A stretch of 64,000 bases of DNA from Candidatus Ulvibacter alkanivorans (GTDB lineage: Bacteria; Bacteroidota; Bacteroidia; Flavobacteriales; Flavobacteriaceae): NCBI RefSeq assembly GCF_003333325.1, contig NZ_QOLC01000025.1, forward strand, positions 27,804-91,803, written 5' to 3'. The notes under the pieces are model-generated. The model was not told where the DNA came from and did not search any database. It was given only the letters and a program-made list of their open reading frames with translations. Below, piece by piece: positions 2,366 through 63,458 of this stretch; position 1 is the stretch's first letter; each line of letters starts with the position of its first letter. The translations under genes were made by a program, and so were the position numbers.

Positions 2366-3595
2366 CTTTGCGATATAGTCCATAATTTTTTGAGTTGCTC
2401 CGGTGTTTTGATCTACGAAATGCGCGGCGATCATTCCTGTTTTGTTCCTAAAGCTGTCGTTTTCCATTAACTTATTCAATATTTCGCTGCATTCTTCCGA
2501 AGATTGAACAGAAAAAAGCCCCGCTAACGATCGCAATCTTTCTGCTTCCGGAAATTCGTCATAGTTCTTGCCAATCACGATCGGCACACCGAAAGTTGCC
2601 GCTTCCAATATATTATGCAATCCTGTACTACCCATTGCGCCTCCAATGTAAGCGACATTGGCGTAGCTATAGATCTTGGTGAGTAACCCTATGGTGTCTA
2701 CAATGAGCACGCTTGCCTGAGATAGATCATCATCGGTATGTTGTGAATATCGAACTGAAGTTTGTTTTAATTTTTTTCTGAAATTTTCAATCTTTTCATC
2801 TTCGATCTTGTGGGGTGCGACCACAACACGAAGTGTGTCTGGCATCGAATTCAAGTAGGGAAGGAGTACGGCTATATCTTCCGCCCAAGTGCTTCCGCAG
2901 ACAAGACATAAATGGTCTTGCTTAAATTGCTCCATAAACCCTAAACTGTTGTCTTGCGCGATTTGATGCGAAACCCTATCAAATCTTGTGTCGCCACTTA
3001 CCGATACATTAAGCAGATTGTGTTTTTTTAGTAATGCTTCGGAAGCTTTATCCTGTACAAAAATATGATGGAAGCTTTGCAGCGCTTTCCGCATAAAACC
3101 ACCATAGGATTTAAAGAACAGTTGTTCTTTTCTGAAAAGTCCCGATACCAGCAAGATAGGAATGTTCTCTTTCTGAAGCTCCAATAAATAATTGGGCCAA
3201 AATTCATATTTAATAAATAATACCAACGCTGGGTTAATCGCTTTTATAAAGCGTTTAGCGTTCGAGATAGTATCCATAGGTAAATATACCACCACATCTG
3301 CCAATGGTGTGTTCTTTTTGTTCTCGTAACCGGAAGGAGAGAAAAATGATACTACGATTTGATGATCGGGAAATTTCTTTTTAACAGCTTTAATAATAGG
3401 CACGCCTTGTTCAAACTCGCCTAAAGAGGCGCAGTGAAACCAAATGGACTTTCGAGTTGGGTCTAATGTGCTCTCTAAGGTGTCGAACACCTGAGTTCTG
3501 CCCTTTATAAACAATTTCATTTTGTTGCTAAAGAACTGAGCAACCCATAAATGAGCTGTAGTGATGTAGATAAGAAGCGTATACAATGATCGCAT
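2342..3595 (-). CDS. waaA: 3-deoxy-D-manno-octulosonic acid (Kdo) transferase
   Basis: 417 residues, normal for WaaA/KdtA, which moves Kdo from CMP-Kdo to lipid A at the inner face of the cytoplasmic membrane. A hydrophobic N-terminal segment (residues 1-20) is the membrane anchor. The GT30 acceptor motif ASLGEFEQG holds the likely catalytic Glu60. The donor-binding half contains the glycine-rich YIGGAMGSTGLHNILEAA and then FGVPIVIG. The gene is followed upstream, in the opposite orientation, by sugar-modifying genes (DegT-type aminotransferase, galE), a cell-envelope context. Its 3' end overlaps the DUF2461 gene. Confidence 0.93.
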   Translation of the reverse strand: MRSLYTLLIYITTAHLWVAQFFSNKMKLFIKGRTQVFDTLESTLDPTRKSIWFHCASLGEFEQGVPIIKAVKKKFPDHQIVVSFFSPSGYENKKNTPLADVVVYLPMDTISNAKRFIKAINPALVLFIKYEFWPNYLLELQKENIPILLVSGLFRKEQLFFKSYGGFMRKALQSFHHIFVQDKASEALLKKHNLLNVSVSGDTRFDRVSHQIAQDNSLGFMEQFKQDHLCLVCGSTWAEDIAVLLPYLNSMPDTLRVVVAPHKIEDEKIENFRKKLKQTSVRYSQHTDDDLSQASVLIVDTIGLLTKIYSYANVAYIGGAMGSTGLHNILEAATFGVPIVIGKNYDEFPEAERLRSLAGLFSVQSSEECSEILNKLMENDSFRNKTGMIAAHFVDQNTGATQKIMDYIAKLHSDGLI

Positions 3596-3756
3596 GACAA
3601 TGCTAAAATACCAAATTTGAGGGAGCTCGTTCGAAAATTGAATGTCTTTTTATTGGAAAAGAGGTAACATCAAAATAATACATATCTTCAAGGGGCAATT
3701 CATAAAAAACTAGCTACATTTTTGTAGTTTTACGAGATAATCGTTCAAGACAACTT

Positions 3757-4914
3757 ATGCGAAAAATACAAATGGTCGACCTTAAAGGTCAATATGAACA
3801 TATAAAAGAGCAAGTAAACCAATCTGTCCTAGATGCAATCGAGTCTACGGCCTATATAAATGGTCCTGAGGTGCATCAATTTCAGAAAGAACTGGAAGAT
3901 TACTTAGGCGTAAAACATGTAATTCCATGTGCCAATGGCACCGATGCATTACAGATCGCCATGATGGGCTTGGGCCTCGCGCCCGGAGATGAGGTGATCA
4001 CTGCCGATTTCACCTTTGCAGCAACTGTAGAAGTTATTGCCTTATTAGGACTAACACCGGTCTTGGTAGATGTAGACCCTGTTACTTTTAATATCGATGT
4101 GGAAGCAATAAGAAAAGCAATCACACCACGAACCAAAGCGATAGTGCCTATACATCTCTTCGGATTGGCAGCGGAAATGGATGCAATTATGGACATTGCC
4201 AAAGAACATGATCTATTTGTTATAGAAGATAATGCCCAAGGCATAGGAGGAACCTATACCACAAGGGATATGGCAAAATTAAAAACAGGAACTATTGGTC
4301 ACGTAGCGTCTACCTCATTCTTCCCTTCGAAGAATTTAGGCTGCTATGGTGATGGAGGAGCTATTTTCACCAATGATGACGATTTGGCGCATACCATTCG
4401 AGGTATTGTTAATCACGGTATGTACGAACGTTACCATCATGATGTGGTTGGAGTGAACTCTAGGTTAGATTCGATTCAAGCTACTATTTTGCGTGCTAAA
4501 CTACCTAATTTGGATAATTATAATGCCAAACGTAGAGATGCGGCACGAAAATATAGTAAGGCGTTCCAGGGAATCGATTCCATCGTAACCCCTACCGGAT
4601 TTTGTGATGCCGGTGCGACTATTTGCGATGTATGCGATTGTCATGTGTTTCACCAATATACATTGCGCGTACTCGATACCGATCGCGATGCATTGGTAAA
4701 GCACCTAAATGAAAATGATATTCCATGTGGGGTTTATTATCCTATCCCTTTGCATTTGCAAAAAGCGTACAGCGATGCACGCTATAATGAAGCAGATTTT
4801 ACCGTGACAAATCAGTTAGTGAAAGAAGTTATTTCACTTCCAATGCACACCGAACTTGATGATGAACAAATAAACTATATTACAAAGACTGTCATCGAAT
4901 TCGTAACTCGTTAA
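3757..4914 (+). CDS. DegT/DnrJ/EryC1/StrS-type PLP aminotransferase
   Basis: 385 residues. Members transfer an amino group to nucleotide-bound keto-sugars or act as related dehydratases in surface polysaccharide synthesis. The PLP lysine is Lys192 in FFPSKNLGCYGDGG; the cofactor pocket includes CANGTDALQIA (58-68) and the VIEDNAQ motif (155-161). It is followed 24 bases later by galE and probably co-transcribed with it. An oddity is a Cys-rich insertion near residues 283-295 (FCDAGATICDVCDCH) just before the conserved VFHQYT segment, giving four cysteines in 13 residues that could bind metal. Substrate is unknown. Confidence 0.92.
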   Translation: MRKIQMVDLKGQYEHIKEQVNQSVLDAIESTAYINGPEVHQFQKELEDYLGVKHVIPCANGTDALQIAMMGLGLAPGDEVITADFTFAATVEVIALLGLTPVLVDVDPVTFNIDVEAIRKAITPRTKAIVPIHLFGLAAEMDAIMDIAKEHDLFVIEDNAQGIGGTYTTRDMAKLKTGTIGHVASTSFFPSKNLGCYGDGGAIFTNDDDLAHTIRGIVNHGMYERYHHDVVGVNSRLDSIQATILRAKLPNLDNYNAKRRDAARKYSKAFQGIDSIVTPTGFCDAGATICDVCDCHVFHQYTLRVLDTDRDALVKHLNENDIPCGVYYPIPLHLQKAYSDARYNEADFTVTNQLVKEVISLPMHTELDDEQINYITKTVIEFVTR

Positions 4915-4938
4915 TCTAGATCGATAAACCCTAATTGT

Positions 4939-5958: not shown

Positions 5959-5960
5959 CT

Positions 5961-7238
5961 ATGAAAAATTATATATTATTTGTTATTGTGTTGTTTTGCT
6001 TCGGAATGCAAGCGCAACAAACGTATCTGCACTGCGGAAAGATAGTCGATACGAAGAATGGTCGCGTAATCGAAAATAAGACCTTGATCGTTTCAGAAGA
6101 CAAAATCGTGGCAATTGAAGATGGCTTTGTAAGTCCGTCTTCCGAAGAAGCCACGGTAATCGACCTGAAAAATAAGACCGTGCTACCCGGACTAATCGAT
6201 ATGCACGTTCACTTAGAGAATGAAACCAGTGCGAATAATTACTTAAAACCATTTATTCTGAATGAAGCCGACGTTGCGTTCAATGCAACCGATTATGCCT
6301 ATAGAACACTTTTGGCTGGCTTTACCACGGTTCGTGATCTTGGAGGTAGCGGTGTAAACGTATCGCTTCGGAATGCTATAAACAACGGTACTGTCACCGG
6401 TCCGCGAATTTATACTGCAGAAAAATCACTGGCAACTACAGGAGGACACGCCGACCCTACCAATGGTAGAAAACGGGAGCTTATGGGAGATCCTGGACCT
6501 GCCGAAGGAGTAGTGAACAGCGTAGAAGACGCTCGAAAGGCAGTCCGTCAACGGTATAAAAATGGTGCGGATTGGATAAAGATCACCGCTACCGGAGGTG
6601 TATTAAGTGTGGCTAAGAGTGGAAAGAATCCTCAGTTCTTAGAAGAAGAAATCGCAGCCATCGTACAAACTGCCAAGGATTACGGAATGTACGTGGCGGC
6701 ACATGCACATGGAGATGAAGGGATGCAACGCGCAATAAGAGCAGGAGTGAAAACCATAGAACATGGAACTTTAATGAGTAAAGAGACCATGCAACTCATG
6801 AAACAATACGATGCTTATTTAGTACCCACCATTACAGCGGGGAAGTATGTAAGTGAAAAGGCAAAGGTGCCTAATTATTATCCGGCGATAATTGTTCCTA
6901 AAGCCTTAGAAATTGGTCCGAAGATTCAAAACACCTTTGGTCAGGCATACGATACGGGTGTAAAGATCGCATTTGGAACCGATGCCGGTGTATTTCCACA
7001 TGGTGAGAACGGTAAAGAGTTCGGATATATGGTGGAAGCCGGTATGCCCGCAATGAAGGCCTTGCAATCGGCTACCATTACCAATGCCGAATTACTACAA
7101 GCTGAAGATGAGCTTGGCCAGCTCGAGGTAGGATTTTTGGCCGATATAGTGGCGGTAAATGAAGATCCTACAGAAAATATCAATACCATGGAAAATGTGA
7201 TATTTGTAATGAAGAATGGAGTGATTTATAAGCAATAA
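5961..7238 (+). CDS. Secreted amidohydrolase (imidazolonepropionase/prolidase-like)
   Basis: 425 residues. The signal peptide MKNYILFVIVLFCFGMQAQ predicts export to the periplasm. The metal-binding TIM barrel of the amidohydrolase superfamily is complete: His82 and His84 in LIDMHVHLE, a likely carboxylated Lys207 in WIKITATGG, His248 in AAHAHGDEG, His268 in TIEHGT and Asp341 in FGTDAG. This architecture matches secreted proteins annotated as Xaa-Pro dipeptidases or imidazolonepropionase-related hydrolases. The substrate is probably a peptide or cyclic amide, but this cannot be decided from sequence. It starts two bases after galE. Confidence 0.9.
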   Translation: MKNYILFVIVLFCFGMQAQQTYLHCGKIVDTKNGRVIENKTLIVSEDKIVAIEDGFVSPSSEEATVIDLKNKTVLPGLIDMHVHLENETSANNYLKPFILNEADVAFNATDYAYRTLLAGFTTVRDLGGSGVNVSLRNAINNGTVTGPRIYTAEKSLATTGGHADPTNGRKRELMGDPGPAEGVVNSVEDARKAVRQRYKNGADWIKITATGGVLSVAKSGKNPQFLEEEIAAIVQTAKDYGMYVAAHAHGDEGMQRAIRAGVKTIEHGTLMSKETMQLMKQYDAYLVPTITAGKYVSEKAKVPNYYPAIIVPKALEIGPKIQNTFGQAYDTGVKIAFGTDAGVFPHGENGKEFGYMVEAGMPAMKALQSATITNAELLQAEDELGQLEVGFLADIVAVNEDPTENINTMENVIFVMKNGVIYKQ

Positions 7239-8452: not shown

Positions 8453-8510
8453 AAAGGTTGAATTTTTGGTTTTGATCCGAATGCGAATACGTATTGCTTC
8501 GGAATAGATT

Positions 8511-9152: not shown

Positions 9153-10001
9153 TTAAGAATACCGTTTTAGTATCGATTTTACCTGCGAAAGGTAACTGCT
9201 TCCGAAGAGATTTAAATGCACCAATAAATAATACAGCTGCCATATTGGGATGCGATCTTTCCAATTTTCTTGAAGTGGAAACTGAGAGTTGTAGCTGGTA
9301 AAAACTTGGGAAGGAAAGCCGCCAAACAATTGCATCATGGCAAGGTCCATCTCGCGAGGTCCGTAGGCGACAGCAGGATCGATTAGTGCCGGTTCTCCGT
9401 GATGGGAAACCATATAATTTCCACTCCAAAGATCTCCATGGAGTAGCGAAGGGGGTTCTTTGGGAATACGGTCTGAAATACTTCGAAAAAATTGAGCTTC
9501 ATCTCCTAGCTGGAACCCCTTATCGTATCCTAACTTCCATTGAGGCAAAAGACGTTGCTCTATGTAGAAGACAGAAGCACTTTCGCGATGTGCATTGTAT
9601 TGTGGGAGACTGCCTATGTAATTGTCATGATCGAGTCCAAAGGAAGCTGCAGTGTTCTTGTGTAGCTCTGCCAAACTATGACCGAACGTTTCCCAAAAAT
9701 TAGTGGTTGGCGTTTTAGAATCAATATGCTCCAATACTAAATAGGCTTTATCGTTGATACAGCCTCGGTTAATTACATTGGGAACAAAGAAAGTTTGTGT
9801 GTTCTGCAAGAGTTTTAGTCCTTTTTCTTCGGCTTCAAACATGCCCGGGAATTTGGAAGCACTGTTCGTTTTTAATACAAATGTTTCCGAAGCCGTTTTC
9901 AACAAGAACACATCGTTGATGTCTCCACCGCTTAATGATGTTACCTGCAAATTTTTTTTTGAAAGTGATTGTTCTAAATGCGCAATTACTTTTTTCATCA
10001 T
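9153..10001 (-). CDS. Fructosamine kinase family protein
   Basis: 283 residues from the ATG at 10001 (MMKKVIAHLEQ). The longer open frame to 10052 would overlap folA, so the internal start, seven bases after the folA stop, is chosen. The aminoglycoside phosphotransferase-like kinase fold is supported by TFVLKTNS with the ATP-contacting lysine, the catalytic loop HGDLWSGNYMV and the metal-binding region ALIDPAVAYGPREMDLAMM. The family phosphorylates protein-bound fructosamines (deglycation) or small ketosamines. It is likely co-transcribed with folA and the 2TM gene upstream. Confidence 0.9.
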   Translation of the reverse strand: MMKKVIAHLEQSLSKKNLQVTSLSGGDINDVFLLKTASETFVLKTNSASKFPGMFEAEEKGLKLLQNTQTFFVPNVINRGCINDKAYLVLEHIDSKTPTTNFWETFGHSLAELHKNTAASFGLDHDNYIGSLPQYNAHRESASVFYIEQRLLPQWKLGYDKGFQLGDEAQFFRSISDRIPKEPPSLLHGDLWSGNYMVSHHGEPALIDPAVAYGPREMDLAMMQLFGGFPSQVFTSYNSQFPLQENWKDRIPIWQLYYLLVHLNLFGSSYLSQVKSILKRYS

Positions 10002-10976: not shown

Positions 10977-12050
10977 ATGACTGCGCTAAAAAAAGAGTTT
11001 CCCGCACTTGATTCCTACACCTATTTAAATACTGCGTCCTGTGGCTTGCTGTCTCAAAGTTTGGTCGACTGGCGACACCAACATGACCGTAAGTTGCTAG
11101 CAGCCGGAAGCGAGTTTAGAGATCAACACAGAGCGCATGTAACTCGTATTAAATCGACGGTTGCCAGAATTTTCAATGCGTCGGAAAATGAGATTGCCTT
11201 GGTCCCCAACTTCTCATTTGGCTGTAATACGTTTTTAGAAGGGCTGCCAAGAAAACAAAAAATACTTTTACTAGATCAAGATTATCCGTCGGTAAATTGG
11301 GCGGTAGAACATCGGGATTTCGATGTTTGTTATGCAGCCATAGATGCGAACTTGGAACAGAATATCGAACAGGCGATTGCCACACACCAACCGGATGTCT
11401 TTATGTTTAGTATCGTACAGTATTTAAGCGGTATCAAGATCGATATGGAATTCTTGACGCGGATTAAAGCATACCATCCCAATTTATTACTAGTAGCCGA
11501 CGGAACTCAATATTTGGGAACCGAGCCCTTTTCATTTGCTGACAGTCCGTTCGATGTGCTTGGCGCCAGTGGTTATAAATGGTTGTTGGCCGGTTACGGG
11601 AATGGAATCTTTATGGTTAAGGAAGGGATACATCAACAGGTTTATCCCAGTACCATCGGATTTAATTCGGCTGAAGCTGCTTACAGTAAGCGCGAAGAGA
11701 TCGATTTTATTCGGCACTTCGAGCCGGGACATCAGGACACGCTAAATTTTGGTAGTTTAGAACAATCGCTTCTGTCTTTGGAATCAATTGGTCTCGCTAA
11801 GATTCAGGAAAAATTAAGCATGCTAAAACAGTATGCTTTCACAAAATTTTCCGAAGCAAACCTATTAGAACTTGCAATACTAGCACGAAAAGATCATGCT
11901 CCTATTTATACGATTAAAGGAAATGAAACCTTATTTCGACGTTTTAAAGAACACGGTATTATCTGTTCGCAACGTGGAAATGGGATACGTGTGAGTTTTC
12001 ATTATTACAACACCCAAAAGGATCTGGATCAATTGCTCGATTTGGTGTAA
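10977..12050 (+). CDS. Class V aminotransferase-fold PLP enzyme
   Basis: 357 residues. The fold is recognised by the N-terminal YLNTASCGLLS, the pocket aspartate in LLVADGTQYLG (residues 171-181) and the Schiff-base lysine Lys201 in GASGYKWLLAGYGNG. This resembles the cysteine desulfurase/isopenicillin-epimerase-like branch, but the cysteine-bearing loop of true IscS/SufS desulfurases is not seen, so the reaction is unknown. It is divergent from the 2TM operon and convergent with the DUF427 gene, with no bases between its stop and that gene's stop. Confidence 0.88.
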   Translation: MTALKKEFPALDSYTYLNTASCGLLSQSLVDWRHQHDRKLLAAGSEFRDQHRAHVTRIKSTVARIFNASENEIALVPNFSFGCNTFLEGLPRKQKILLLDQDYPSVNWAVEHRDFDVCYAAIDANLEQNIEQAIATHQPDVFMFSIVQYLSGIKIDMEFLTRIKAYHPNLLLVADGTQYLGTEPFSFADSPFDVLGASGYKWLLAGYGNGIFMVKEGIHQQVYPSTIGFNSAEAAYSKREEIDFIRHFEPGHQDTLNFGSLEQSLLSLESIGLAKIQEKLSMLKQYAFTKFSEANLLELAILARKDHAPIYTIKGNETLFRRFKEHGIICSQRGNGIRVSFHYYNTQKDLDQLLDLV

Positions 12051-45808: not shown

Positions 45809-46096
45809 ATGTCTAAAAAGAATTGGCCCCTTTGGGAAATATTTGTTAGAAGTAAAAACGGTCTGGAGCATCGTCACTTCGGAAGTTTGCATGCCGCAGA
45901 CGCAGAAATGGCACTTGAGAATGCCCGAGATGTATATACACGCCGAAACGAAGGCGTGAGTATTTGGGTCGTTGAAAGTAAACACATTACCGCTTCAAAT
46001 CCGGAAGATAATGGCGAACTTTTCGAACCTGCACAAGATAAGGTGTACCGTCACCCTACCTTCTACGATCTTCCAGATGATGTAAAACATATGTAA
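45809..46096 (+). CDS. paaB: 1,2-phenylacetyl-CoA epoxidase subunit PaaB
   Basis: 95 residues, the normal size. This small subunit is needed for assembly or electron transfer in the epoxidase complex. Typical sequence: WPLWEIFVRSKNGLEHRHFG, then HAADAEMALENARDVYTRR, GVSIWVVES and the closing YRHPTFYDLPDDVKHM. It is flanked by paaA and paaC with short gaps (57 and 15 bases). Confidence 0.96.
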   Translation: MSKKNWPLWEIFVRSKNGLEHRHFGSLHAADAEMALENARDVYTRRNEGVSIWVVESKHITASNPEDNGELFEPAQDKVYRHPTFYDLPDDVKHM

Positions 46097-51281: not shown

Positions 51282-53825
51282 ATGAATAAAACGCAACATT
51301 ACGTACAAGGACAATGGACCGAAGGTAAAGGTGAGGGGAGTCCAATATTAGACTCTGTCACAGGAGAACATTTCACCTCGGTGACTACCGAAGGCTTGGA
51401 CATTCCGGAGATACTGAATTATGGAAGAGAAAACGGCAACACGCTGCGTAAAATGACCTTTCAGGAGCGTGGTAACATGCTTAAAAGCTTAGCGCTGTAC
51501 TTGACAAAACGAAAGCAACAATTTTACGACATCAGTTATCGAACCGGAGCTACTAAAATTGATAGTTGGATCGATATTGAAGGAGGCTTCGGAAACTTGT
51601 TCGCCAATGCATCACTTCGGAAACTATTTCCTAATCAATCGTATCACGTAGAAGGCGATCCTATCGATCTTTCTCGAGGGGGACGATTTATGGCCCATCA
51701 TATCATGGTGCCGCGTGAAGGTGTTGCCGTTCATATCAATGCCTTTAACTTCCCGGTTTGGGGAATGCTGGAAAAATGCGCCGTCAATTGGATGGCAGGA
51801 ATGCCGGCAGTAGTGCTTCCGGCCCCACAAACAGCCTACTTGACCGAAGCAGTTGTAAAAGAAATTATCTCTTCAGGAATTCTTCCTGAAGGTGCATTGC
51901 AATTAATTAGCGGAACCGCAAAATCCATACTCGATACGGTCGAGTCACAAGATGTCGTGACCTTTACAGGCTCGGCGAGCACGGGTAAAATTCTAAAAAA
52001 ACATCCTAGACTCATAGAAGAATCGGTGCCATTTACGATGGAAGCCGATTCCCTTAACGCAGCGATCTTAGGCGAAGATGCAGTACCTGGCACCCCTGAG
52101 TTCGATCTGTTTATTAAGGAGGTGCGTAACGAAATGACGGTTAAATGTGGACAAAAATGTACGGCAATCCGTCGTATAATTGTTCCGGAAAAATTAGTGG
52201 AAGATGTCCAGATCGCGTTAGGCAAGCAACTAGACAAGGTCACCATTGGAGATCCGCGATTAAAAGAGGTTCGTATGGGCGCATTAGTTAGTGATGCCCA
52301 ACGCCAATCGGTTAAAGAACAAATTGAAAAGATCACACAAACAGCACAGATCGTTTACGGTGATTTTGACGATGCTAAAACCGTAGGTGCCGATGCCCAA
52401 AAAGGCGCATTTGTAAAACCTATTTTGCTGCGTGAAGATGATCCTTTACATAACGAAGCAGCACATATTACAGAAGCCTTCGGACCAGTTAGTACTTTAA
52501 TGCCCTACAGCACCTTAGAAGATGCAATTAAACTGTCCAAAATGGGCAAAGGGTCACTGGTAAGCTCGATCGTTACCAACGATGATACCATCGCGAAAGA
52601 ATATACAGTTTCGGCTGCGACACATCACGGTAGAATACTTATTTTGAATCGTGAAAGCGCCAAACAAAGTACGGGGCACGGTTCACCCTTACCGAACTTG
52701 ATCCATGGTGGTCCCGGACGCGCCGGTGGAGGTGAAGAAATGGGAGGTATGCGCGGTATAAAACATTATTTGCAACGTTGCGCCATCCAAGGATCTCCAA
52801 CCACCCTAACCGAAGTAACCGGTATTTACCAACCCAAGGCAGCCTATAAAAAGACCGAGCAACATCCGTTCGCATATCATTGGGAAGACATTCAGCCGGG
52901 AATGTCATTAGAAACACACAAGCGAACGATCACAGATACCGACATTGTAAACTTCGGAAACCTAACGTGGGATCATTTCTATGCACACACCGACATCACT
53001 TCTTTGGACGGAAGCATTTTTGAAAAACGAACCGCCCATGGATATTTTATCATTTCGGCCGCTGCAGGACTGTTTGTCTATCCCAACAAAGGACCGGTTG
53101 CCGCGAACTACGGACTGGAAGAGTGTAGGTTCTTACGCCCAATTTATCACAACGATACTGTCTATGTCCGACTTACCTGTAAACAAAAGATCGATCGTGA
53201 CCAACGCGGTACCGAATTACCCTCGGGGATCGTAAAATGGTATGTGGAAGTATTCGACGCCAATGTCGATGTCGACGCCCAAGGCAACCCTAAGTCGGAA
53301 GACGAGAATCCGTTGGTGGCCATTGCAACCATACTTACTATGGTTCAGAAGAAACAAACAGTGTTTACTGAGATGACTTCAAAAAACATTAAGAAATACC
53401 TCGATACGCTTTCCGAAGAAACCAAACCACGTTGGGGAACAATGACCGCACAAGGAATGATAGAACATTTGGAGTATACCTATCGTATTGCGGCGAACGA
53501 GATCCAAGATTTTGAGATCGCTACACCCGATAAGTACCTTGAAAAGACCCACGCCACACTCTACAATTATGAAAAGATGCCTAGAGATTACAATTTTCCA
53601 CTTTCCGAAGCATCGAGAATGGATGAACTGAAACATCCCGATCTGGAAACAGCTAAAACTAAAATGTTGGAAGCACGTGAAGAGTATCTAAAGTATTTTA
53701 AAGAGAACCCGGACGCACGTACCAAGAACGTCGTATTTGGCGAATTAAATAAATTTGAATGGTACTTGCTAGAACGCAAACACCTTAATCATCACTTTGA
53801 GCAATTCGGTTTGCTCGATTCATAA
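51282..53825 (+). CDS. paaZ: Bifunctional ring-opening PaaZ with an additional C-terminal DinB/DUF1569-like domain
   Basis: 847 residues; ordinary PaaZ is about 680. Residues 1-515 are an aldehyde dehydrogenase with general base Glu254 and nucleophile Cys293 (KCGQKCTAI). Residues about 530-690 are the MaoC-type oxepin-CoA hydrolase ([24 protein letters not shown]). It opens oxepin-CoA and oxidises the aldehyde. Residues about 697-847 are an extra helical domain with [10 protein letters not shown] (His729) and [14 protein letters not shown] (His834, His837, His838), resembling DUF1569/DinB-type proteins. The fusion is in frame with no stop or frameshift. Confidence 0.93.
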
Positions 53826-54633: not shown

Positions 54634-55230
54634 ATGATCTATAGCTTTAAAGGACATATCCCGGTGGTGCACGAAAGTAGCTTTGTTCATCCGTTGGCTG
54701 CCGTGACCGGCAATGTCATCATTGGGAAAAATTGCTATGTGGGACCGGGTGCCGCCATTCGTGGCGACTGGGGAGAGATCATCCTTGAAGACGGTGTCAA
54801 TGTTCAGGAAAATTGTACCGTGCATATGTTCCCGGGCAAAAGCATAGTGTTGTCCAGTGGAGCACATGTGGGACACGGCGCGATTATTCATGGGGCCAAC
54901 CTGGGGCGCAATTGCCTTATTGGAATGAACAGCGTGATCATGGATGATGCCGAAATTGGTGAAGAATGCATCGTAGGAGCAATGGCCTTTGTTAAAGCCG
55001 AAACCAAGTTTGCAAAACGACAATTGATCGTGGGCAATCCGGCCAAAGCGATCAAAGAAGTTTCCGAAGAAATGGTCGCTTGGAAAACAGCCGGCACCAA
55101 ATTGTACCAACAGTTGCCAACCGACTGTCACGAGAGCTTGCGAGAAGTAGAACCGCTTCGATCGCTTCCGGAAACTAGACCCGAGCAGGAATCGTTTTAT
55201 GATACACTGCGCGATTTTATGAAGAAGTAA
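54634..55230 (+). CDS. paaY: Hexapeptide-repeat protein PaaY
   Basis: 198 residues with a left-handed beta-helix of hexapeptide repeats (GNVIIGKNCYVGPGAAIRGDWG, then IVLSSGAHVGHGAIIHG). The zinc-binding histidines of gamma-class carbonic-anhydrase-like PaaY are visible in CTVHMF and GHGAIIHG. In studied bacteria it is a thioesterase that clears inhibitory CoA adducts of the pathway. Last gene of the paa operon; the repeat element begins on the base after its stop codon. Confidence 0.93.
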   Translation: MIYSFKGHIPVVHESSFVHPLAAVTGNVIIGKNCYVGPGAAIRGDWGEIILEDGVNVQENCTVHMFPGKSIVLSSGAHVGHGAIIHGANLGRNCLIGMNSVIMDDAEIGEECIVGAMAFVKAETKFAKRQLIVGNPAKAIKEVSEEMVAWKTAGTKLYQQLPTDCHESLREVEPLRSLPETRPEQESFYDTLRDFMKK

Positions 55231-55445: not shown

Positions 55446-56736
55446 TAAGAAATCCCTGTCTACACAGGAATTTAAAATGCCGAAAATGGGGGAAAGCATT
55501 ACCGAAGGTACCATCATTAATTGGTTGGTGCAAGAAGGTGAGTCTTTCGATACAGGCGATATACTCGTTGAAGTAGCAACCGATAAGGTCGATAACGAAG
55601 TTCCCGCACCTTCAGCAGGAAAACTTATTGAACATAAGGTCGCTGCCAAAGATGTTGTCCCGGTGGGAGAAGTGATCGCTATCCTAGAACTTTCCGAAGC
55701 CCCGAAAAAAACCGTTTCCAAGACCAAATCCAAAGCAACAGCACCCAAAACAAAACAAGAACAGAAAAAGAAAAAAGCCACCAAACCTACCGCAACAACA
55801 TTTCAAGTAAAGGAAAATGTGTTTATATCACCGCTAATAGACAGTATAGCACGCAAACACCATGTTAGTTATGAAGAATTGGCTCGTATCCCCGGAACCG
55901 GGACGGATGGCCGACTTAGAAAAAGCGATTTGTTGCAGTATTTAGACGAGGGGAGACCGTATCAGTTTGCACAGGCGACGACCGCACCTTCCGGATTCCA
56001 AATCCCCGATCTAAAATTCGATAAAGGAAAAGGAAAAGTGGTTCCTATGGATCGAATGCGCCAAATGATCTCCGATCATATGGTGTTTTCTGCAACGACA
56101 GCACCTCATGTCACTGCTTATGTCGAAGCCGACCTAACCAATATGGTCAAGTGGCGTAATGCAAATAAAGAAGCATTTCAGAGCAAATACAACGAAAAAC
56201 TAACATTTACTCCCTTATTTATCGAGGCAGTTGCGAATGCGATCACCGACTTCCCCATGATCAATTCATCCTTGGATGGCACCGATATTATTGTAAAAGA
56301 AGAGATCAATATTGGCATGGCAACCGCATTGCCTTCGGGAAATCTTATCGTGCCCGTAGTTAAAGATGCCAACAAAAAGGACTTACAGCAGTTGGCGGCA
56401 GCCACTAACGAATTGGTAGGCAAAGCCCGTGAAAATAAACTTAAAGGCGACGACACCAAAGGCAGTACTTTTACAATTAGCAATGTGGGTACCTTTGGCA
56501 GTCTTATGGGGACTCCCATTATTAATCAACCGGAGGCAGCCATCTTAGCGACCGGCATTATAAAAAAACGAGCCGAGGTCATGGAGCGTCCCGATGGTGA
56601 TAGCATCGAGATACGACAAATGATGTATCTGTCCTTGTCGTTCGACCATCGTATAGTCGATGGCTATTTAGCCGGGTCGTTCTTACGACGTATTGCCGAC
56701 AATATGGAACAATTTGATACCAAGCGAACCATTTAA
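55435..56736 (+). CDS. 2-oxo acid dehydrogenase E2 (branched-chain type dihydrolipoyl acyltransferase)
   Basis: 433 residues: one lipoyl domain with lipoylated Lys51 (VEVATDKVDNEVPAP), a basic linker, a short peripheral-subunit-binding domain near residues 125-165 (FISPLIDSIARKHHVSYEEL), and a catalytic domain ending DHRIVDGYLAG with His405 and Asp409. It transfers acyl groups to CoA in the branched-chain 2-oxo acid dehydrogenase complex. It is followed by ilvE and the fused E1, so transamination and decarboxylation are encoded together. It starts 205 bases after paaY, separated by the repeat and gene remnant. Confidence 0.92.
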   Translation: MSDDKKSLSTQEFKMPKMGESITEGTIINWLVQEGESFDTGDILVEVATDKVDNEVPAPSAGKLIEHKVAAKDVVPVGEVIAILELSEAPKKTVSKTKSKATAPKTKQEQKKKKATKPTATTFQVKENVFISPLIDSIARKHHVSYEELARIPGTGTDGRLRKSDLLQYLDEGRPYQFAQATTAPSGFQIPDLKFDKGKGKVVPMDRMRQMISDHMVFSATTAPHVTAYVEADLTNMVKWRNANKEAFQSKYNEKLTFTPLFIEAVANAITDFPMINSSLDGTDIIVKEEINIGMATALPSGNLIVPVVKDANKKDLQQLAAATNELVGKARENKLKGDDTKGSTFTISNVGTFGSLMGTPIINQPEAAILATGIIKKRAEVMERPDGDSIEIRQMMYLSLSFDHRIVDGYLAGSFLRRIADNMEQFDTKRTI

Positions 56737-56771: not shown

Positions 56772-57839
56772 ATGATTGATGCGAAGCATAATATAACTGT
56801 TACCAAGACTTCAGATTCAAAAGTAAATACAATAGACTTTAATAACATTCCATTAGGTCGAGCCTTTACCGACCATATGTTTGTATGCGATTATAACAAT
56901 GGGCAATGGAACAATCCACGAGTGGAGCCACTTGCCGCAATCCCCACTCACCCAGCCGCCATGGCCTTGCACTACGGTCAAGCTATATTCGAAGGCATGA
57001 AAGCAACACGAGATGAGAAGGGTGCCCCCATATTGTTTCGTCCAAAAAAGAATGCCGAACGACTTAATTTTAGTGCACAACGCATGGGAATGCCCGATTT
57101 TCCGGAAACACTTTTCGTAGAGGGGTTAAAAGAATTGGTAGATGTGGAACGAGACTGGATCCCGCCACAGGAAGGAAGTGCTTTGTATTTAAGACCCTTT
57201 ATGTATGCAGACGAGCCCTTTATTGGAATGCGAGCTGCCACCAGTTATAAATTTATGATCATTGCTTCTCCGGCAGGACCGTTTTTTAGCAAACGGATAA
57301 AATTATACGCAGAGAAGAAATACATTCGCGCAGCCGAGGGGGGAACGGGCGAAGCCAAGGCAGCAGGGAATTACGCAGCAGCTATTAGACCTACAGAAAT
57401 TGCAAAGGCCAAAGGGTATGATCAAGTATTGTGGTTAGACGCTTATGAACATAAGTATATTCAAGAAGTAGGGACCATGAATATCTTCTTTAAGATAGAC
57501 GGAAAATTTATTACACCTAAACTGGACGGAGCTATCCTTAATGGGATTACCCGAATGAGTGTGTTGGAGCTACTTAAAGACAAGGGATACGAAGTTACCG
57601 AACGCGCCATAACTATAGACGAAATAAAAAAAGCTTCCGAAGAAGGTACCTTGGAAGAAGCATTTGGTACAGGCACAGCAGTTGGAATTGCATACATTCA
57701 AGAGATTGGATACGGTGATGAAACCATTCATGTATCTGATGAAAGTCCGGTGGGACTAGAGATCAACAATACATTAAACGATTTAAAAGCCGGGAAGATA
57801 GAAGATAAATTCAACTGGTTATTGAAAGTGAAAAATTAA
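56772..57839 (+). CDS. ilvE: Branched-chain amino acid aminotransferase
   Basis: 355 residues, fold type IV PLP aminotransferase. The N-terminal PLGRAFTDHMFVCDYNNGQW and AAMALHYGQAIFEGMKA segments are typical. The PLP lysine is in GEAKAAGNYAAAI, and the C-terminal NGITRMSVLELL binds the cofactor phosphate region. It interconverts Val/Leu/Ile and their 2-oxo acids. Its place between E2 and E1 of the branched-chain dehydrogenase points to catabolism rather than biosynthesis. The next gene starts eight bases after its stop. Confidence 0.94.
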   Translation: MIDAKHNITVTKTSDSKVNTIDFNNIPLGRAFTDHMFVCDYNNGQWNNPRVEPLAAIPTHPAAMALHYGQAIFEGMKATRDEKGAPILFRPKKNAERLNFSAQRMGMPDFPETLFVEGLKELVDVERDWIPPQEGSALYLRPFMYADEPFIGMRAATSYKFMIIASPAGPFFSKRIKLYAEKKYIRAAEGGTGEAKAAGNYAAAIRPTEIAKAKGYDQVLWLDAYEHKYIQEVGTMNIFFKIDGKFITPKLDGAILNGITRMSVLELLKDKGYEVTERAITIDEIKKASEEGTLEEAFGTGTAVGIAYIQEIGYGDETIHVSDESPVGLEINNTLNDLKAGKIEDKFNWLLKVKN

Positions 57840-57847: not shown

Positions 57848-59905
57848 ATGAAAGGAATAATGAAAGAAGCGTATAAAAAAGCATTTTCGAACCTCTGCAC
57901 GGCAAAGGCGATGACCGAGTTGTACGAAGCCAATTTTAAATTGGTCTCAAAATACGTTCATGCTACCTCGAGAGGGCACGAAGTTATCCAGACCGCTGTT
58001 GGAATGCAATTGCTTCCCCAGGATTATATGTTTCCCTACTATCGCGATGACTCGATGCTATTAGCTATAGGAATGGAACCTAGAGACCTTATGTTACAAG
58101 TACTCGCGAAAGGCGATGATCCTTTTTCGGGAGGACGCACCTATTATTCGCATCCAAGCTTAAAAGAAGACGATAAACCAAAGATCCCACACCAGAGTAG
58201 TGCTACCGGGATGCAGGCAATTCCTGCCACAGGAGTAGCGATGGGGATGTGGTATAAAGAAACTGAAAACTTGAACGATCTAGATATAGATCAACCCATT
58301 GTGGTTTGCTCCCTAGGAGATGCTTCAGTTACCGAAGGAGAGATCGCAGAGGCATTTCAAATGGCTGCGTTAAAACAACTGCCAATCTTGTATCTGGTGC
58401 AGGACAACGGTTGGGATATTTCTGCTAACGAAGCAGAGACCCGCGCACAAAATGCAGCCGAATATGCGGCAGGATTTCACGGTCTGGAAGCAATTTCTAT
58501 TGACGGAACCGATTTTGAAGAGAGTTATTCGACCATAGAAAAGGTGATAGCCACTATTAGAACTGAGAGGCGTCCATTTTTGGTGCATGCGAAAGTTCCA
58601 CTTTTAAACCATCACACCTCTGGTGTACGTATGGAATTTTATCGCGATGATCTGGAAGAAGCCAGAAGCCGAGATCCATACCCTAAGATGAAACAACTCT
58701 TGAGCGAACAAGGTTTTACCGAAAAAGAGCTTGAAGCGATCGAAGCAAAAGCGATCAATAAAGTAAACGCAGATTTTGAAAGTGCTCAAAAAGCAGAAGA
58801 CCCAAAACCGGAAGACCTATTTACACACGATTTTGCACCAACACCTATTACAGAAGAGCAGGGCGAACGTTCTCCCGAAGGAGGCGAGAAGGTGGTCATG
58901 GTAGATTGTGCACTTTTTGCGATCGAAGAATTGATGGCAAAGCACAAAGAATGTTTATTATACGGCCAGGATGTTGGAGGCCGATTGGGAGGTGTTTTTA
59001 GAGAAGCAGCCACCTTGGCACAAAAATTTGGAGACAATCGTGTTTTTAATACGCCTATTCAAGAGGCCTTTATTGTTGGATCCACCGTGGGTATGAGTGC
59101 CGTAGGGCTAAAGCCCATTGTTGAGGTTCAGTTTGCCGACTATATTTGGCCGGGTCTCAACCAGTTATTTACTGAAGTGAGTAGAAGTAATTACTTATCG
59201 AACGGAAAATGGCCGGTCTCGATGATTTTACGAGTTCCTATAGGTGCCTACGGAAGTGGAGGTCCTTATCATTCGTCTTCGGTGGAAAGCGTGGTAACCA
59301 ACATTCGTGGACTTAAGATCGCTTACCCGAGCAATGGTGCCGATCTAAAAGGGTTAATGAAAGCAGCGTATTACGATCCGAACCCTGTAGTTATTTTTGA
59401 GCATAAAGGTTTATATTGGAGCAAGGTAAAAGGCACAAAAGGCGCTACTTCCTTAGAACCTGCAGAAGATTACGTGCTGCCATTTGGAAAGGCATGGGTG
59501 CTTCAGGAAATCTGGAAGCAAGAGGAAGAAGAGACTGTTTCAATTATAACCTATGGGATGGGGGTGCATTGGGCGATGAATGCTTCCGAAGCATTAGGTC
59601 TTACAAACACCATAGAGATAGTCGACCTTCGTACGTTACATCCATTAGATTATGACACCGTGCTCAAGTCGGTTAAAAAATGTGGGAAATGTCTGGTGGT
59701 GACCGAGGAACCTTCAGAAAATAGTTTTTCAAGAGCCTTACAAGGTCGTATTCAAGAGGAATGTTTTCAAGAATTAGATGCTCCGGTCATGATCATAGGC
59801 AGTGAAAACATGCCTGCTATTCCATTGAACTCGGTGTTGGAAGAGACCATGATCCCTTCCGTAGAAAAAGTAAAAAATAAAATAATAGAACTAATTAATT
59901 ATTAA
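57848..59905 (+). CDS. 2-oxo acid dehydrogenase E1, alpha-beta fusion
   Basis: 685 residues: residues 1 to about 330 are the E1 alpha domain with the TPP motif GDASVTEGEIAEAF and the phosphorylation-loop-like SHPSLKEDDKPKIPHQSSATG. Residues about 345-685 are the E1 beta domain with LLYGQDVGGRLGGVF, FNTPIQEAFIVGSTVGMSAVG, YGSGGPYHSSSVESV and IVDLRTLHPLDYDTV. The single-chain form is common in Bacteroidota. It decarboxylates branched 2-oxo acids and loads the acyl group on E2. An ATG nine bases into ATGAAAGGAATAATG is an equally usable start. Confidence 0.93.
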   Translation: MKGIMKEAYKKAFSNLCTAKAMTELYEANFKLVSKYVHATSRGHEVIQTAVGMQLLPQDYMFPYYRDDSMLLAIGMEPRDLMLQVLAKGDDPFSGGRTYYSHPSLKEDDKPKIPHQSSATGMQAIPATGVAMGMWYKETENLNDLDIDQPIVVCSLGDASVTEGEIAEAFQMAALKQLPILYLVQDNGWDISANEAETRAQNAAEYAAGFHGLEAISIDGTDFEESYSTIEKVIATIRTERRPFLVHAKVPLLNHHTSGVRMEFYRDDLEEARSRDPYPKMKQLLSEQGFTEKELEAIEAKAINKVNADFESAQKAEDPKPEDLFTHDFAPTPITEEQGERSPEGGEKVVMVDCALFAIEELMAKHKECLLYGQDVGGRLGGVFREAATLAQKFGDNRVFNTPIQEAFIVGSTVGMSAVGLKPIVEVQFADYIWPGLNQLFTEVSRSNYLSNGKWPVSMILRVPIGAYGSGGPYHSSSVESVVTNIRGLKIAYPSNGADLKGLMKAAYYDPNPVVIFEHKGLYWSKVKGTKGATSLEPAEDYVLPFGKAWVLQEIWKQEEEETVSIITYGMGVHWAMNASEALGLTNTIEIVDLRTLHPLDYDTVLKSVKKCGKCLVVTEEPSENSFSRALQGRIQEECFQELDAPVMIIGSENMPAIPLNSVLEETMIPSVEKVKNKIIELINY

Positions 59906-60485: not shown

Positions 60486-62498
60486 TTACGTGTTTTTTAA
60501 TAAATCATCATCAACGAAATTTGGAAGCGTAACTTTAAGTTGTGGATTATGTTTCATAGCCCTTTTGATTGCAAAAATAGCTTCATCATTTCGCGCCCAA
60601 CTGCGGCGTGCTATTCCGTTATTTACATCCCAGAATAACATAGATTCTAAGCGTCGTTGGGCATCACTAGTACCATCAAGAACCATACCGAAACCACCGT
60701 TGATAACTTCTCCCCAGCCTACGCCACCACCGTTATGAATGCTAACCCATGTAGCGCCTCTAAAACTATCTCCTATAACATTCTGAATGGCCATATCGGC
60801 TGTAAATCGACTTCCATCGTAGATGTTTGAAGTTTCACGATAAGGAGAATCGGTGCCGGATACATCATGGTGGTCGCGCCCAAGAATGACCGAACCTATT
60901 TTTCCTTCAGCAATCGCTTTATTGAAGGCAGATGCAATTTGAACCCTGCCGTCACTGTCTGCATACAAGATTCGAGCTTGTGAACCAACAACCAATTTAT
61001 TCTGTTGGGCTCCCTTGATCCATTGTATATTATCGGCCATTTGTTGTTGGATCTCTTCCGGAGCTGTCTGTTTTAATTTTTCAAGGACCTCACAGGCAAT
61101 AGCATCGGTTTTTTCAAGATCTTCTGCTTTACCTGAAGCACATACCCACCTAAAAGGCCCGAAACCATAATCAAAACACATTGGTCCCATAATATCTTGT
61201 ACATAAGAAGGGTATCTGAACTCCGATTTAGATTTTGATGTATCTGAATTAGTATCGTCTGTGGTCATTATAGCAGCTCCAGCTCTAGAAGCTTCCAAAA
61301 GAAAAGCGTTTCCGTAATCAAAGAAATAAGTGCCTTTCTGCGTATGCTTATTTATAGCCGCTACTTGTCGGCGTAGACTTTCTTGTACTTTCTTTTTAAA
61401 GGTCTCAGGGTCGTTCGCCATTAGTTCATTCGCTTCGGCGTAACGTAATCCCGCCGGATAATAACCGCCTGCCCAAGGATTGTGCAACGAAGTTTGATCG
61501 CTTCCAAGGTCAATATGTACCTCTTCCTCAGCAAAACGTTCCCAAACATCGACTACGTTGCCATCGTAAGCGATCGATACTGCTTCTTTGTTAGCTACGG
61601 CCTTTTTAACACGATCCACCAATTCGCTTAGGTCACTTATTACCTCATCTACCCAGCCTTGTTCATGCCGTGTTTGGGTTGCTTTTTTATTGACCTCGGC
61701 ACATACGGTAACGCAACCTGCTATATTCCCCGCTTTTGGCTGTGCACCACTCATGCCGCCTAGGCCAGAAGTAACGAACAATCCACCGGAAGGCGATTTA
61801 CCTATTTTTCGGAATCCATTTAAGACTGTGATAGTGGTCCCATGTACAATGCCTTGAGGACCAATATACATATAACTACCGGCAGTCATTTGGCCGTACT
61901 GTGTAACTCCAAGTGCATTGAATTTTTCCCAATCATCGGGTTGTGAGTAATTAGGAATCATCATACCGTTGGTAACTACGACTCTTGGTGCATCGGGATG
62001 TGAAGGGAATAGTCCCATTGGGTGTCCCGAATACATGACCAAGGTTTGTTCGTTGGTCATTTCAGAAAGGTACTGCATCGTTAATCGATATTGTGCCCAG
62101 TTTTGAAAAACTGCCCCATTACCACCATAGGTTATAAGCTCGTGTGGGTGCTGTGCTACAGCATGATCTAAATTATTTTGGATCATTAACATGATCGCTT
62201 TGGCCTGGTTACAGCGTCCGGGGTATTCGGAAAGGGGACGCGCTACAATTTTGTGAGTAGGTCGAAGGCGGTACATATAAATACGACCGTATGCTTCCAA
62301 TTCCTTTTTGAATTCAGGAAGCAATAAAGCATGATGTTGTGCATTAAAATAGCGCAACGCATTTTGCAAGGCCAAGGTTGTCTCTTCTTCGGAAAGAATC
62401 TTTTTACGCTTGGGGGCGTGGTTTATTGAAGTGTCGTAGACGGGAGCCTCTGGCAATTGGTCGGGTATACCTGCACATATTTCTTCTTGAAAGGTCAT
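60486..62498 (-). CDS. hutU: Urocanate hydratase
   Basis: 670 residues, longer than the roughly 555-residue Proteobacterial and Bacillus enzymes. It converts urocanate to imidazolonepropionate in histidine breakdown. Family landmarks: YGGNGAVFQNWAQYRLTMQY, LYSGHPMGLFPSH-like sequence, MYIGPQGIVHGTTIT, GLGGMSGAQPKAGNIAG, and the C-terminal HNGGGVGWGEVINGGFGMV. The extra length lies mainly in the N-terminal 80 or so residues and in mid-chain insertions. No hutH, hutI or hutG is in the window, so the pathway is split. Confidence 0.95.
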   Translation of the reverse strand: MTFQEEICAGIPDQLPEAPVYDTSINHAPKRKKILSEEETTLALQNALRYFNAQHHALLLPEFKKELEAYGRIYMYRLRPTHKIVARPLSEYPGRCNQAKAIMLMIQNNLDHAVAQHPHELITYGGNGAVFQNWAQYRLTMQYLSEMTNEQTLVMYSGHPMGLFPSHPDAPRVVVTNGMMIPNYSQPDDWEKFNALGVTQYGQMTAGSYMYIGPQGIVHGTTITVLNGFRKIGKSPSGGLFVTSGLGGMSGAQPKAGNIAGCVTVCAEVNKKATQTRHEQGWVDEVISDLSELVDRVKKAVANKEAVSIAYDGNVVDVWERFAEEEVHIDLGSDQTSLHNPWAGGYYPAGLRYAEANELMANDPETFKKKVQESLRRQVAAINKHTQKGTYFFDYGNAFLLEASRAGAAIMTTDDTNSDTSKSKSEFRYPSYVQDIMGPMCFDYGFGPFRWVCASGKAEDLEKTDAIACEVLEKLKQTAPEEIQQQMADNIQWIKGAQQNKLVVGSQARILYADSDGRVQIASAFNKAIAEGKIGSVILGRDHHDVSGTDSPYRETSNIYDGSRFTADMAIQNVIGDSFRGATWVSIHNGGGVGWGEVINGGFGMVLDGTSDAQRRLESMLFWDVNNGIARRSWARNDEAIFAIKRAMKHNPQLKVTLPNFVDDDLLKNT

Positions 62499-62548: not shown

Positions 62549-62719
62549 TTATTTTTTTTGATTGGTTTTTTTGTTGAATCCGTAGGGACAATGGCGACAA
62601 CCACTTTCGCAACAATAGCCTCGTTTTAAATGATACTGTGCCGTAAAGCACTTATAGCCTTCTGGAGTTAAATAAAAGTCACCTTCTTCTATCTCTATTT
62701 TTTTCTTCGGAAACAGCAT
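62549..62719 (-). CDS. DUF5522 small Cys-rich protein
   Basis: 56 residues. The family core is LTPEGYKCFTAQYHLKRGYC followed by CESGCRHCPYGF, with five cysteines in a pattern suited to binding zinc or an iron-sulfur centre. The ends are basic (LFPKKK at the start, NKKTNQKK at the end). No signal peptide. Such proteins are found in Bacteroidota, including as a domain of longer proteins, and have no known function. It is 51 bases downstream of nothing coding on its strand other than hutU's start region. TATTTTTG lies four bases before the ATG, suggesting a very short leader. Confidence 0.85.
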   Translation of the reverse strand: MLFPKKKIEIEEGDFYLTPEGYKCFTAQYHLKRGYCCESGCRHCPYGFNKKTNQKK

Positions 62720-62763
62720 AGTACAAAAATAGAAATAGTTATGCTTTTTATTATCTTCAAGCA

Positions 62764-63090
62764 GTGATTGTTTTAGCCCATCGATTTTTTTTCAGAAAAG
62801 GTTTTCTAGCCATAGCCTTATGGCCCTTTATTTTTATTAAACACAAGCATTTAAAAGAGGATGCGGTGTTTATAAATCACGAAAGAATTCATCTGCGACA
62901 ACAAATCGAGCTGCTTGTGGTCTTCTTTTATGTTTGGTATGTACTAGAATTTTTCTTTAGATGGTTGCAATACAAGCATCGTTATAAAGCGTATAGAAAT
63001 ATAAGTTTTGAACGGGAAGCCTATAAAAATGAAAAAGATTTGTACTATTTTAAGAAACGAACTTTTTGGAAGTTTCTGGACTATTTTTAA
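62764..63090 (+). CDS. Small membrane protein with HExxH motif
   Basis: 108 residues from a GTG at 62764. A hydrophobic N-terminal stretch (FLAIALWPFIFIK) and one clear membrane helix (LLVVFFYVWYVLEFFFRWL) flank the motif FINHERIHLRQQIEL, a perfect HExxH. A possible third ligand glutamate is in SFEREAYKNE about 47 residues later, giving an HExxH...E plan like gluzincin metallopeptidases or M56-type proteins. I recall similar uncharacterised proteins in Bacteroidota but no named function. The C-terminus is basic and aromatic. Its 3' end overlaps the convergent gene by four bases. Confidence 0.75.
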   Translation: MIVLAHRFFFRKGFLAIALWPFIFIKHKHLKEDAVFINHERIHLRQQIELLVVFFYVWYVLEFFFRWLQYKHRYKAYRNISFEREAYKNEKDLYYFKKRTFWKFLDYF

Positions 63091-63458
63091 TGGTCTATCG
63101 TCGTTTGTATCGAGTCGGAAACCTTTTTATTTTTCAAGTTTAAGTGAGCTTGGCGAAGACCGGTAGGTAAGTTGAATTTCCGAGTTTTTTCCGAAGCATT
63201 CATAACAAAATAACTTGTGTTGTCAATAGAACTATCGATAACTTCTCGTTTTGCAAGTACGATTTCTTTTTTTAGGAATGTTTGATCTGAGGAAGAATTT
63301 GTTGTTTTAGCTGGGACGAAAACGGGTGTCATCTCCTTAGAAATTTCTTTTTGCTTTTTTAGTACTATGGAAGCTGAGGCTAATGAATCCTGATTTGTTT
63401 GACCAATAGCGAATGAACAAATTAAGAACACGCCTACTATAAGGGCTAATTGTTTCAT
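63087..63458 (-). CDS. Secreted hypothetical protein
   Basis: 123 residues from the ATG at 63458, which gives the signal peptide MKQLALIVGVFLICSFAIG; the frame remains open to 63482 but overlaps the upstream gene. The mature part is hydrophilic with Ser/Lys-rich segments (ASIVLKKQKEISKEM, VMNASEKTRKFNLPTG) and no recognised domain. It starts seven bases after the stop of the upstream secreted protein, so the two are probably co-expressed. Confidence 0.65.
   Translation of the reverse strand: MKQLALIVGVFLICSFAIGQTNQDSLASASIVLKKQKEISKEMTPVFVPAKTTNSSSDQTFLKKEIVLAKREVIDSSIDNTSYFVMNASEKTRKFNLPTGLRQAHLNLKNKKVSDSIQTTIDH

Follow-up and report, generated by a model that had tools for sequence, protein, structure and literature searches.

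A directional octamer enriched across Ulvibacter and related Flavobacteriaceae, a candidate core of a DNA uptake sequence

The window considered here, a 64,000-nucleotide stretch of Candidatus Ulvibacter alkanivorans (NZ_QOLC01000025.1, positions 27,804-91,803), is a piece of Flavobacteriaceae chromosome whose Pfam matches are ordinary core genes. Running through it in both orientations is the octamer TTCCGAAG, of which there are exactly 55 copies (28 on the forward and 27 on the reverse strand), the first starting at 2495 and the last ending at 63196; the recount bears out the tally of an earlier reading of the letters alone (hereafter the first-pass annotation), which had proposed a DNA uptake or genome-organising word. 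We find a genuine word, shared across the group and selected or driven at the level of DNA. The best single explanation, to which we give a probability of about 0.6, is that TTCCGAAG would form the core of an uptake sequence belonging to the Ulvibacter/Cochleicola/Aequorivita group, uptake itself being something we infer from genome sequence.

Against shuffles of the window that preserve dinucleotides (n=100, mean 2.78 copies, maximum 8) the word is enriched about 20-fold, and its 51 coding copies compare with 3.4 in synonymous shuffles that leave all the proteins and the overall codon use intact (n=100, maximum 8), which is about 15-fold; both figures are lower than the roughly 30-fold first proposed. 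Under a first-order model it ranks top among the 8-mers of the window (55 against 2.63, z 32), whilst under the highest-order model, which draws on the word's own 7-mers and 6-mer, the figures are just 55 against 47, because the sub-words of TTCCGAAG are abundant through TTCCGAAG itself. Each of the six reading frames exceeds the codon-shuffle expectation (1, 3 and 18 copies in sense frames 0, 1 and 2; 4, 11 and 14 in the antisense frames), with merely 1-4 copies in three of the six. On our gene list five copies lie outside genes, namely the three already recognised as intergenic (8497, 24568 and 36160) and two more (62705 and 63189); an automatic call of open reading frames (ORFs) in the window leaves four outside. 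The preceding base is T in 33 cases, C in 16, A in six and never G, and the position-4 variant TTCTGAAG is scarce here, with eight copies. The exact matches on both strands, in window coordinates, are as follows, a divergent pair being one in which CTTCGGAA precedes TTCCGAAG.

2495..2502, forward, TTCCGAAG
3037..3044, reverse, TTCCGAAG
5999..6006, reverse, TTCCGAAG, left arm of divergent pair with 6140
6140..6147, forward, TTCCGAAG, right arm of divergent pair with 5999
6366..6373, reverse, TTCCGAAG
8497..8504, reverse, TTCCGAAG, intergenic
9200..9207, forward, TTCCGAAG
9885..9892, forward, TTCCGAAG
11849..11856, forward, TTCCGAAG
13632..13639, reverse, TTCCGAAG
14493..14500, reverse, TTCCGAAG
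18201..18208, forward, TTCCGAAG
19467..19474, forward, TTCCGAAG
21655..21662, reverse, TTCCGAAG, left arm of divergent pair with 21700
21700..21707, forward, TTCCGAAG, right arm of divergent pair with 21655
24360..24367, forward, TTCCGAAG
24568..24575, reverse, TTCCGAAG, intergenic
25444..25451, reverse, TTCCGAAG
29091..29098, reverse, TTCCGAAG, left arm of divergent pair with 29164
29164..29171, forward, TTCCGAAG, right arm of divergent pair with 29091
29214..29221, reverse, TTCCGAAG
31410..31417, forward, TTCCGAAG
31450..31457, reverse, TTCCGAAG
32009..32016, forward, TTCCGAAG
33222..33229, reverse, TTCCGAAG
33468..33475, reverse, TTCCGAAG, left arm of divergent pair with 33574
33574..33581, forward, TTCCGAAG, right arm of divergent pair with 33468
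35497..35504, reverse, TTCCGAAG
36160..36167, forward, TTCCGAAG, intergenic
36601..36608, reverse, TTCCGAAG
38483..38490, forward, TTCCGAAG
40009..40016, reverse, TTCCGAAG
42125..42132, forward, TTCCGAAG
42203..42210, forward, TTCCGAAG
43297..43304, forward, TTCCGAAG
44148..44155, reverse, TTCCGAAG, left arm of divergent pair with 44388
44388..44395, forward, TTCCGAAG, right arm of divergent pair with 44148
45877..45884, reverse, TTCCGAAG
46714..46721, forward, TTCCGAAG
47188..47195, forward, TTCCGAAG
47897..47904, reverse, TTCCGAAG
48077..48084, reverse, TTCCGAAG
50816..50823, reverse, TTCCGAAG
51587..51594, reverse, TTCCGAAG
51615..51622, reverse, TTCCGAAG
52952..52959, reverse, TTCCGAAG
53411..53418, forward, TTCCGAAG
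53603..53610, forward, TTCCGAAG
55062..55069, forward, TTCCGAAG
55692..55699, forward, TTCCGAAG
57635..57642, forward, TTCCGAAG
59584..59591, forward, TTCCGAAG
62387..62394, reverse, TTCCGAAG
62705..62712, reverse, TTCCGAAG, outside called genes
63189..63196, forward, TTCCGAAG, outside called genes

The window is also enriched, under the first-order model, in ATCGAT (134 against 44) and related words, ATCGCGAT (20 against 2.5) among them, and it carries a Flavo-1 small RNA at 55250-55328 on the reverse strand (53 bits, gathering score 42).

Related genomes hold the word in numbers far above expectation. Among the loci compared, 19 of the 22 window proteins were matched, and 13 of these 19 have their best match in five loci of one group (five in a metagenome-assembled genome (MAG) labelled Zunongwangia, three in Cochleicola, two in Ulvibacter and three in two uncultured Flavobacteriaceae). 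With the reversed word as background control for genome counts, 13 related genomes carry 617-2,099 copies of TTCCGAAG each: Ulvibacter litoralis 2,099 (control 257), UBA4166 1,976 (302), Cochleicola gelatinilyticus 1,495 (187), four Aequorivita genomes 728-949, the Zunongwangia-labelled MAG 714, four uncultured Flavobacteriaceae 725-1,167 and a Marixanthomonas MAG 617 (168). Kordia periserrulae, Mesonia aquimarina, a Polaribacter, a Cellulophaga and a Dokdonia assembly all fall below control. In a survey of 397 genomes drawn evenly across the family, at least 700 copies were found in 25, one of which (G116) stands at merely 1.9 times control; the richest is G083, with 2,678 copies in 3.8 Mb (control 245), and 29 of the survey's first 41 rows lie below control. 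When the DUF5686 protein of the window was compared with 30 enriched genomes, 19 matched at 73-86% identity (one partially), eight at 56-66%, and three gave weak partial matches only; the strong signal thus mostly tracks the relatives of the window, with weaker enrichment beyond them. In a gene tree of the proton-pumping pyrophosphatase (71 rows, labelled rich where the ratio to the reversed-word control exceeds 2.2), the smallest well-supported set containing the window has 14 rows, of which 12 are word-rich, and the genome of L004 sits inside it yet is not rich (241 against 232). The tree has 16 rows labelled rich, three of them low in absolute count.

A megabase sample of G083 (1,039,744 bases) contains 787 copies where trinucleotide composition predicts 66, with 405 on one strand and 382 on the other. 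Within its coding DNA, 742 copies compare with 62.8 in codon shuffles, each of the six frames being enriched 9.2-23.6 fold, so that the earlier argument from frame independence to selection on DNA is supported and extends to the whole genomes of relatives. Neither of the outcomes that the first-pass annotation had named as refuting it, a count close to expectation across the genome or an enrichment restricted to a single frame, is seen in these relatives. Ser-Glu contexts are frequent among the coding copies, as they would be if the word simply followed from codon use or from a preference for the dipeptide Ser-Glu; we regard the chance of this as negligible, since the protein-keeping shuffles rule it out both in G083 and in the window, and since intergenic copies share the flank of the coding ones. 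Relative to expectation, perfect matches stand out: the perfect word is enriched 12 fold, and single-mismatch forms outside position 4 stand at 0.4-2.2 fold, the position-4 variants TTCTGAAG (T) and TTCAGAAG (A) reaching 5.4 and 2.5 fold. In absolute numbers the perfect sites are not in the majority, with 787 of them and 1,582 single-mismatch sites, or 967 without position 4. Across 400 kb of Cochleicola TTCCGAAG is found 182 times (23 expected) and TTCTGAAG 156 times (24 expected), and the core is therefore better given as TTCYGAAG.

Chi-type recombination or repair signals and KOPS-type words that guide a translocase would, like this word, be asymmetric octamers found throughout a chromosome, and they are expected to be skewed by replication strand. 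Cumulative GC skew in the G083 sample turns at about 500 kb, and the strand split is 175 to 144 in the first 440 kb, where the skew is negative (p 0.09), and 230 to 238 beyond, where it is mostly positive (p 0.75); in Cochleicola (G003) it is 91 to 91 across 400 kb of a single skew sign. The absence of a strand change across the turn means that no replication-strand bias is shown, and on this ground we disfavour Chi and KOPS words; the first-pass annotation had already noted that such words are usually strand-skewed. An enrichment of about 12-fold and one copy per 1.3 kb would also be high for Chi, and altogether we consider such a role improbable.

The word has a direction. In G083 it is preceded by a pyrimidine and followed by A or C and then by an A-rich tract from +8 to about +22, on the 3' side only and alike in coding and intergenic copies; the tract is shorter in G003, from +8 to +10. 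The extended form may be written (Y)TTCYGAAG(M) with an A-rich 3' flank. Alignments of G083 and G003 orthologues indicate how the word arises: one of 54 words (1.9%) overlaps a gap, against 0.5% of control 8-mers, and 32% of word sites are conserved, against 7.6% of controls. The word originates by point mutation, not by insertion. Within genes its reverse complement is the commoner orientation (583 against 470, p 0.0006).

HIP1 of cyanobacteria is likewise an octamer repeated genome-wide, of disputed function, but it is a palindrome, whereas TTCCGAAG is directional with a one-sided flank. Perhaps a mutation, repair or methylation process of this kind keeps the word, with no protein reading free DNA, and a second strongly repeated word in the family, a palindrome in a Dokdonia assembly, lends this some weight: repeated words in the family may have several causes. 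Mutation pressure, however, would predict neither the one-sided A-rich flank nor the divergent pairing described below, and methylation of a site would not by itself enrich it, so that we think a HIP1-like origin very improbable.

The Dokdonia palindrome, GCTTTCGCGAAAGC, occurs 878 times in 4.8 Mb of the uncultured assembly G017 (loci L078, L138 and L139), with a reversed control of 0; two Leeuwenhoekiella have 25 and seven copies and 17 other tested genomes 0-3. Of 13 places where its inner 10-mer was read, seven lie between genes and six inside ORFs, and a literature search for TTTCGCGAAA with Dokdonia found no paper. A further palindrome, GCAATTGC, is enriched in Aequorivita sinensis and an uncultured Flavobacteriaceae (L047:1-21310 and L064:1-22430), with 12 copies per locus where about one is expected.

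Neighbouring copies are arranged in a characteristic way. Of the pairs less than 300 bp apart in G083, 123 are divergent, 31 convergent and 123 on the same strand, where no preference would give 1:1:2, and at a distance of 80-100 bp there is a peak of 25 divergent pairs against one convergent; these counts include some pairs, at least in one case, from duplicated genes. Seen from the single word, 95 of 786 G083 copies have CTTCRGAA at 75-105 bp on their upstream side, and 11 have it downstream. The excess is found elsewhere too, both in Cochleicola (relaxed word, less than 300 bp; 52 divergent against 17 convergent) and in pooled stretches of other rich genomes (exact word; 33 against nine). 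Across 50 enriched genomes, with the relaxed pattern and 65-95 bases between, it amounts to 1,100 against 341, or 885 against 306 when G083 is left out, with divergent pairs outnumbering convergent ones in 43 genomes, equal in three and fewer in four. The sharp peak at 90 bp is clear in G083 only, the excess being broad elsewhere, and the distances show no clear periodicity of about 10.5 bp. In the window itself the numbers are too small for a bias to be demonstrated (five divergent and four convergent pairs within 300 bp; degenerate partners 12 upstream and nine downstream). A terminator or hairpin role was rejected, considering that copies lie mostly within genes and that very close inverted pairs are rare: on the G083 contig the closest divergent pair starts at least 12 bp apart and the closest convergent one at least 37 bp.

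This arrangement brings in the main rival to uptake, in which an abundant chromosome-organising or DNA-bridging protein would bind a pair of inverted sites spaced by about 90 bp and wrap or loop the intervening DNA, and the word would be selected for nucleoid structure. Divergent pairs would be the natural footprint of a two-fold symmetric looping protein, and copies are spread fairly evenly over the G083 sample, at 19-41 per 40 kb with six in the final stretch. We keep this reading in play because of the pairs, and because a type IV pilus is undetected in 13 of 15 word-rich genomes. Set against it, a near partner exists for just the 95 of 786 copies, a minority; core nucleoid proteins would be expected to be shared, whereas the word is limited to part of the family; and a preference for perfect matches such as the one seen here relative to expectation is atypical of intracellular binding sites, going by the excerpts of PMC1626085 used here. 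On balance we judge a nucleoid role possible but rather unlikely.

As a DNA uptake sequence, the word would join those described, in the sources excerpted here, for Pasteurellaceae and Neisseriaceae, and on most of the counts that sequence can address it appears to behave like the uptake signal sequences (USS) of the former and the DNA uptake sequences (DUS) of the latter. It shares their enrichment to about one copy per kb (PMC1626085), the lack of replication-strand bias, frame independence and an origin by point mutation, and with the Pasteurellaceae type a 3' AT-rich tract. It resembles the Pasteurellaceae USS (Hin type AAGTGCGGT and Apl type ACAAGCGGT), which the same excerpts and those of PMC2346458 portray as clade-specific words with balanced strands, AT-rich tracts 3' of the core, a point-mutation origin and a reverse complement commoner in genes. 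The core of TTCCGAAG is nonetheless unrelated, is commoner within genes than between them, forms divergent pairs near 90 bp instead of overlapping terminator pairs, and comes without a secretin match in 13 of 15 genomes. With the DUS dialects it has in common density, strand balance and restriction to a group; it differs in its A-rich flank, DUS having no flanking motif in the excerpts of PMC1626085. DUS differ also in their machine, since the pilus is mostly undetected in word-rich genomes. DUS are read by type IV pili, through the pilin ComP. Two usual features of both families are absent from our word, namely a preference for non-coding DNA with close terminator-like pairs, and a type IV pilus machine with a secretin; for this reason, and because uptake is read from sequence, we do not file TTCCGAAG among them. 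A type IV pilus with its secretin, which in the known uptake-sequence machines forms the pore through the outer membrane, is, to be sure, a feature of the known cases and not of the definition of an uptake sequence. In the open-licence literature searched we found no paper describing an uptake word in Bacteroidota, in line with the first-pass annotation.

A different machine could serve in this family. Transformation of Riemerella anatipestifer requires ComEC, DprA, ComF and RecA together with four proteins that do not resemble the competence factors known so far; one of the four is a surface protein with DUF5689, and another is its outer-membrane neighbour, which carries a carboxypeptidase-regulatory domain (PMC8459023, in excerpt). 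Of the word-rich genomes tested, 18 of 19 have DUF5689, and ComEC is present in 20 of 20. In G083, the one genome where adjacency was seen, the DUF5689 gene (L091:14448-15863) adjoins a barrel-sized CarboxypepD_reg gene (L091:15887-18682), and past these two, on the opposite strand, lies a gene of the endonuclease/exonuclease/phosphatase family (PF19580, L091:18814-19872), whose product might serve DNA uptake as a nuclease. Searching the PDB with the DUF5689 sequence found nothing. The parallel with Riemerella stops at the word: the excerpts of PMC8459023 and PMC7965970 report no uptake word there, the latter describing the top raw k-mers of Riemerella and F. johnsoniae as all A/T-dominated and leaving the question open, although R. 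columbina prefers its own DNA (PMC7965970).

Several observations weigh against uptake, and the reading advanced by the first-pass annotation is only partly supported: most of the Haemophilus and Neisseria profile fits, and the pilus and the pairing do not. The com and pil genes that it had suggested looking for divide accordingly, with ComEC in every word-rich genome tested and the secretin PF00263 unmatched in 13 of 15 (several of the genomes being drafts), a match being found in two; a strong PF00437 ATPase occurs only in those two, with one marginal match over the cut-off in G002. It follows that, were the word an uptake sequence, its reader would in most cases be something other than a type IV pilus. 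Nor does either Riemerella-type gene predict the word, since both are also present in word-poor relatives (DUF5689 in 18 of 20, ComEC in 17 of 18). Aequorivita sinensis is nearly poor (254 against 152), and on the pyrophosphatase tree the rich label changes seven times (14.6 with shuffled labels, and at least six forced by supported branches), so that on this gene the rich genomes gather near the window without forming a single clade. In the sources excerpted, USS and DUS favour non-coding DNA and show a spacing more even than chance would give; in the G083 sample the 45 copies between genes amount to 0.45 per kb against 0.79 within genes, and greater regularity was not clearly seen, also after clusters were merged. 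In most Pasteurellaceae tested the USS reverse complement lies toward the 5' end of genes and the USS toward the 3' end (PMC2346458, in excerpt); ours runs in the same direction without reaching significance (pooled, 228 against 195, p 0.12), though it is suggestive in G083 alone. Divergent pairing near 90 bp is not predicted by an ordinary uptake word and is absent from the USS features in the excerpted descriptions, and in H. influenzae two USS within 100 bp brought no detectable gain in uptake (PMC7811141, in excerpt). Absence from defence islands is expected for any old chromosomal word, and the literature searched held no uptake or transformation result for this clade.

The defence islands in question are the two longest word-free gaps of G083, and their lack of the word had been counted among the points in favour of uptake. 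A word-free stretch of 26.8 kb there (L131:2648-20000 and L132:1-9415) looks like such an island: with 10 of its 25 ORFs scanned, it encodes a Schlafen-type helicase with GIY-YIG, MazG, HsdR_N-like and TIR proteins, and HamA adjoins a helicase.

How might a DNA uptake sequence have come to fill these genomes? A surface protein would read the word on free DNA, word-bearing DNA would preferentially be taken up and recombined, and this bias would make the word accumulate in the genome. More speculatively, the reader could be a machine of the Flavobacteriaceae type and not a type IV pilus, composed of the DUF5689 surface protein, the CarboxypepD_reg outer-membrane barrel and ComEC; that DUF5689 is the protein that recognises the word is likewise something we infer. 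Divergent pairs might then reflect two copies of the reader holding one DNA loop. In its most explicit form, which we put forward tentatively and as a doubtful proposition, a two-fold symmetric outer-membrane complex of DUF5689 and a barrel resembling a TonB-dependent transporter would grip two inverted TTCYGAAG sites about 90 bp apart, flanks outward, and draw in the loop.

If such a pilus-free, two-handed reader exists, then uptake specificity would have arisen on a machine of a third, unrelated type, whose geometry would have shaped the genome into divergent pairs. Whichever protein is involved, the spacing and orientation of the pairs give a quantitative hint at the way the reader holds DNA. 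A third independent uptake word, in another phylum and in organisms where a pilus secretin is mostly undetected, would separate the general features of uptake sequences from those imposed by the pilus, and the word offers a ready probe for the DNA receptor of the poorly understood transformation machine of the Flavobacteriaceae.

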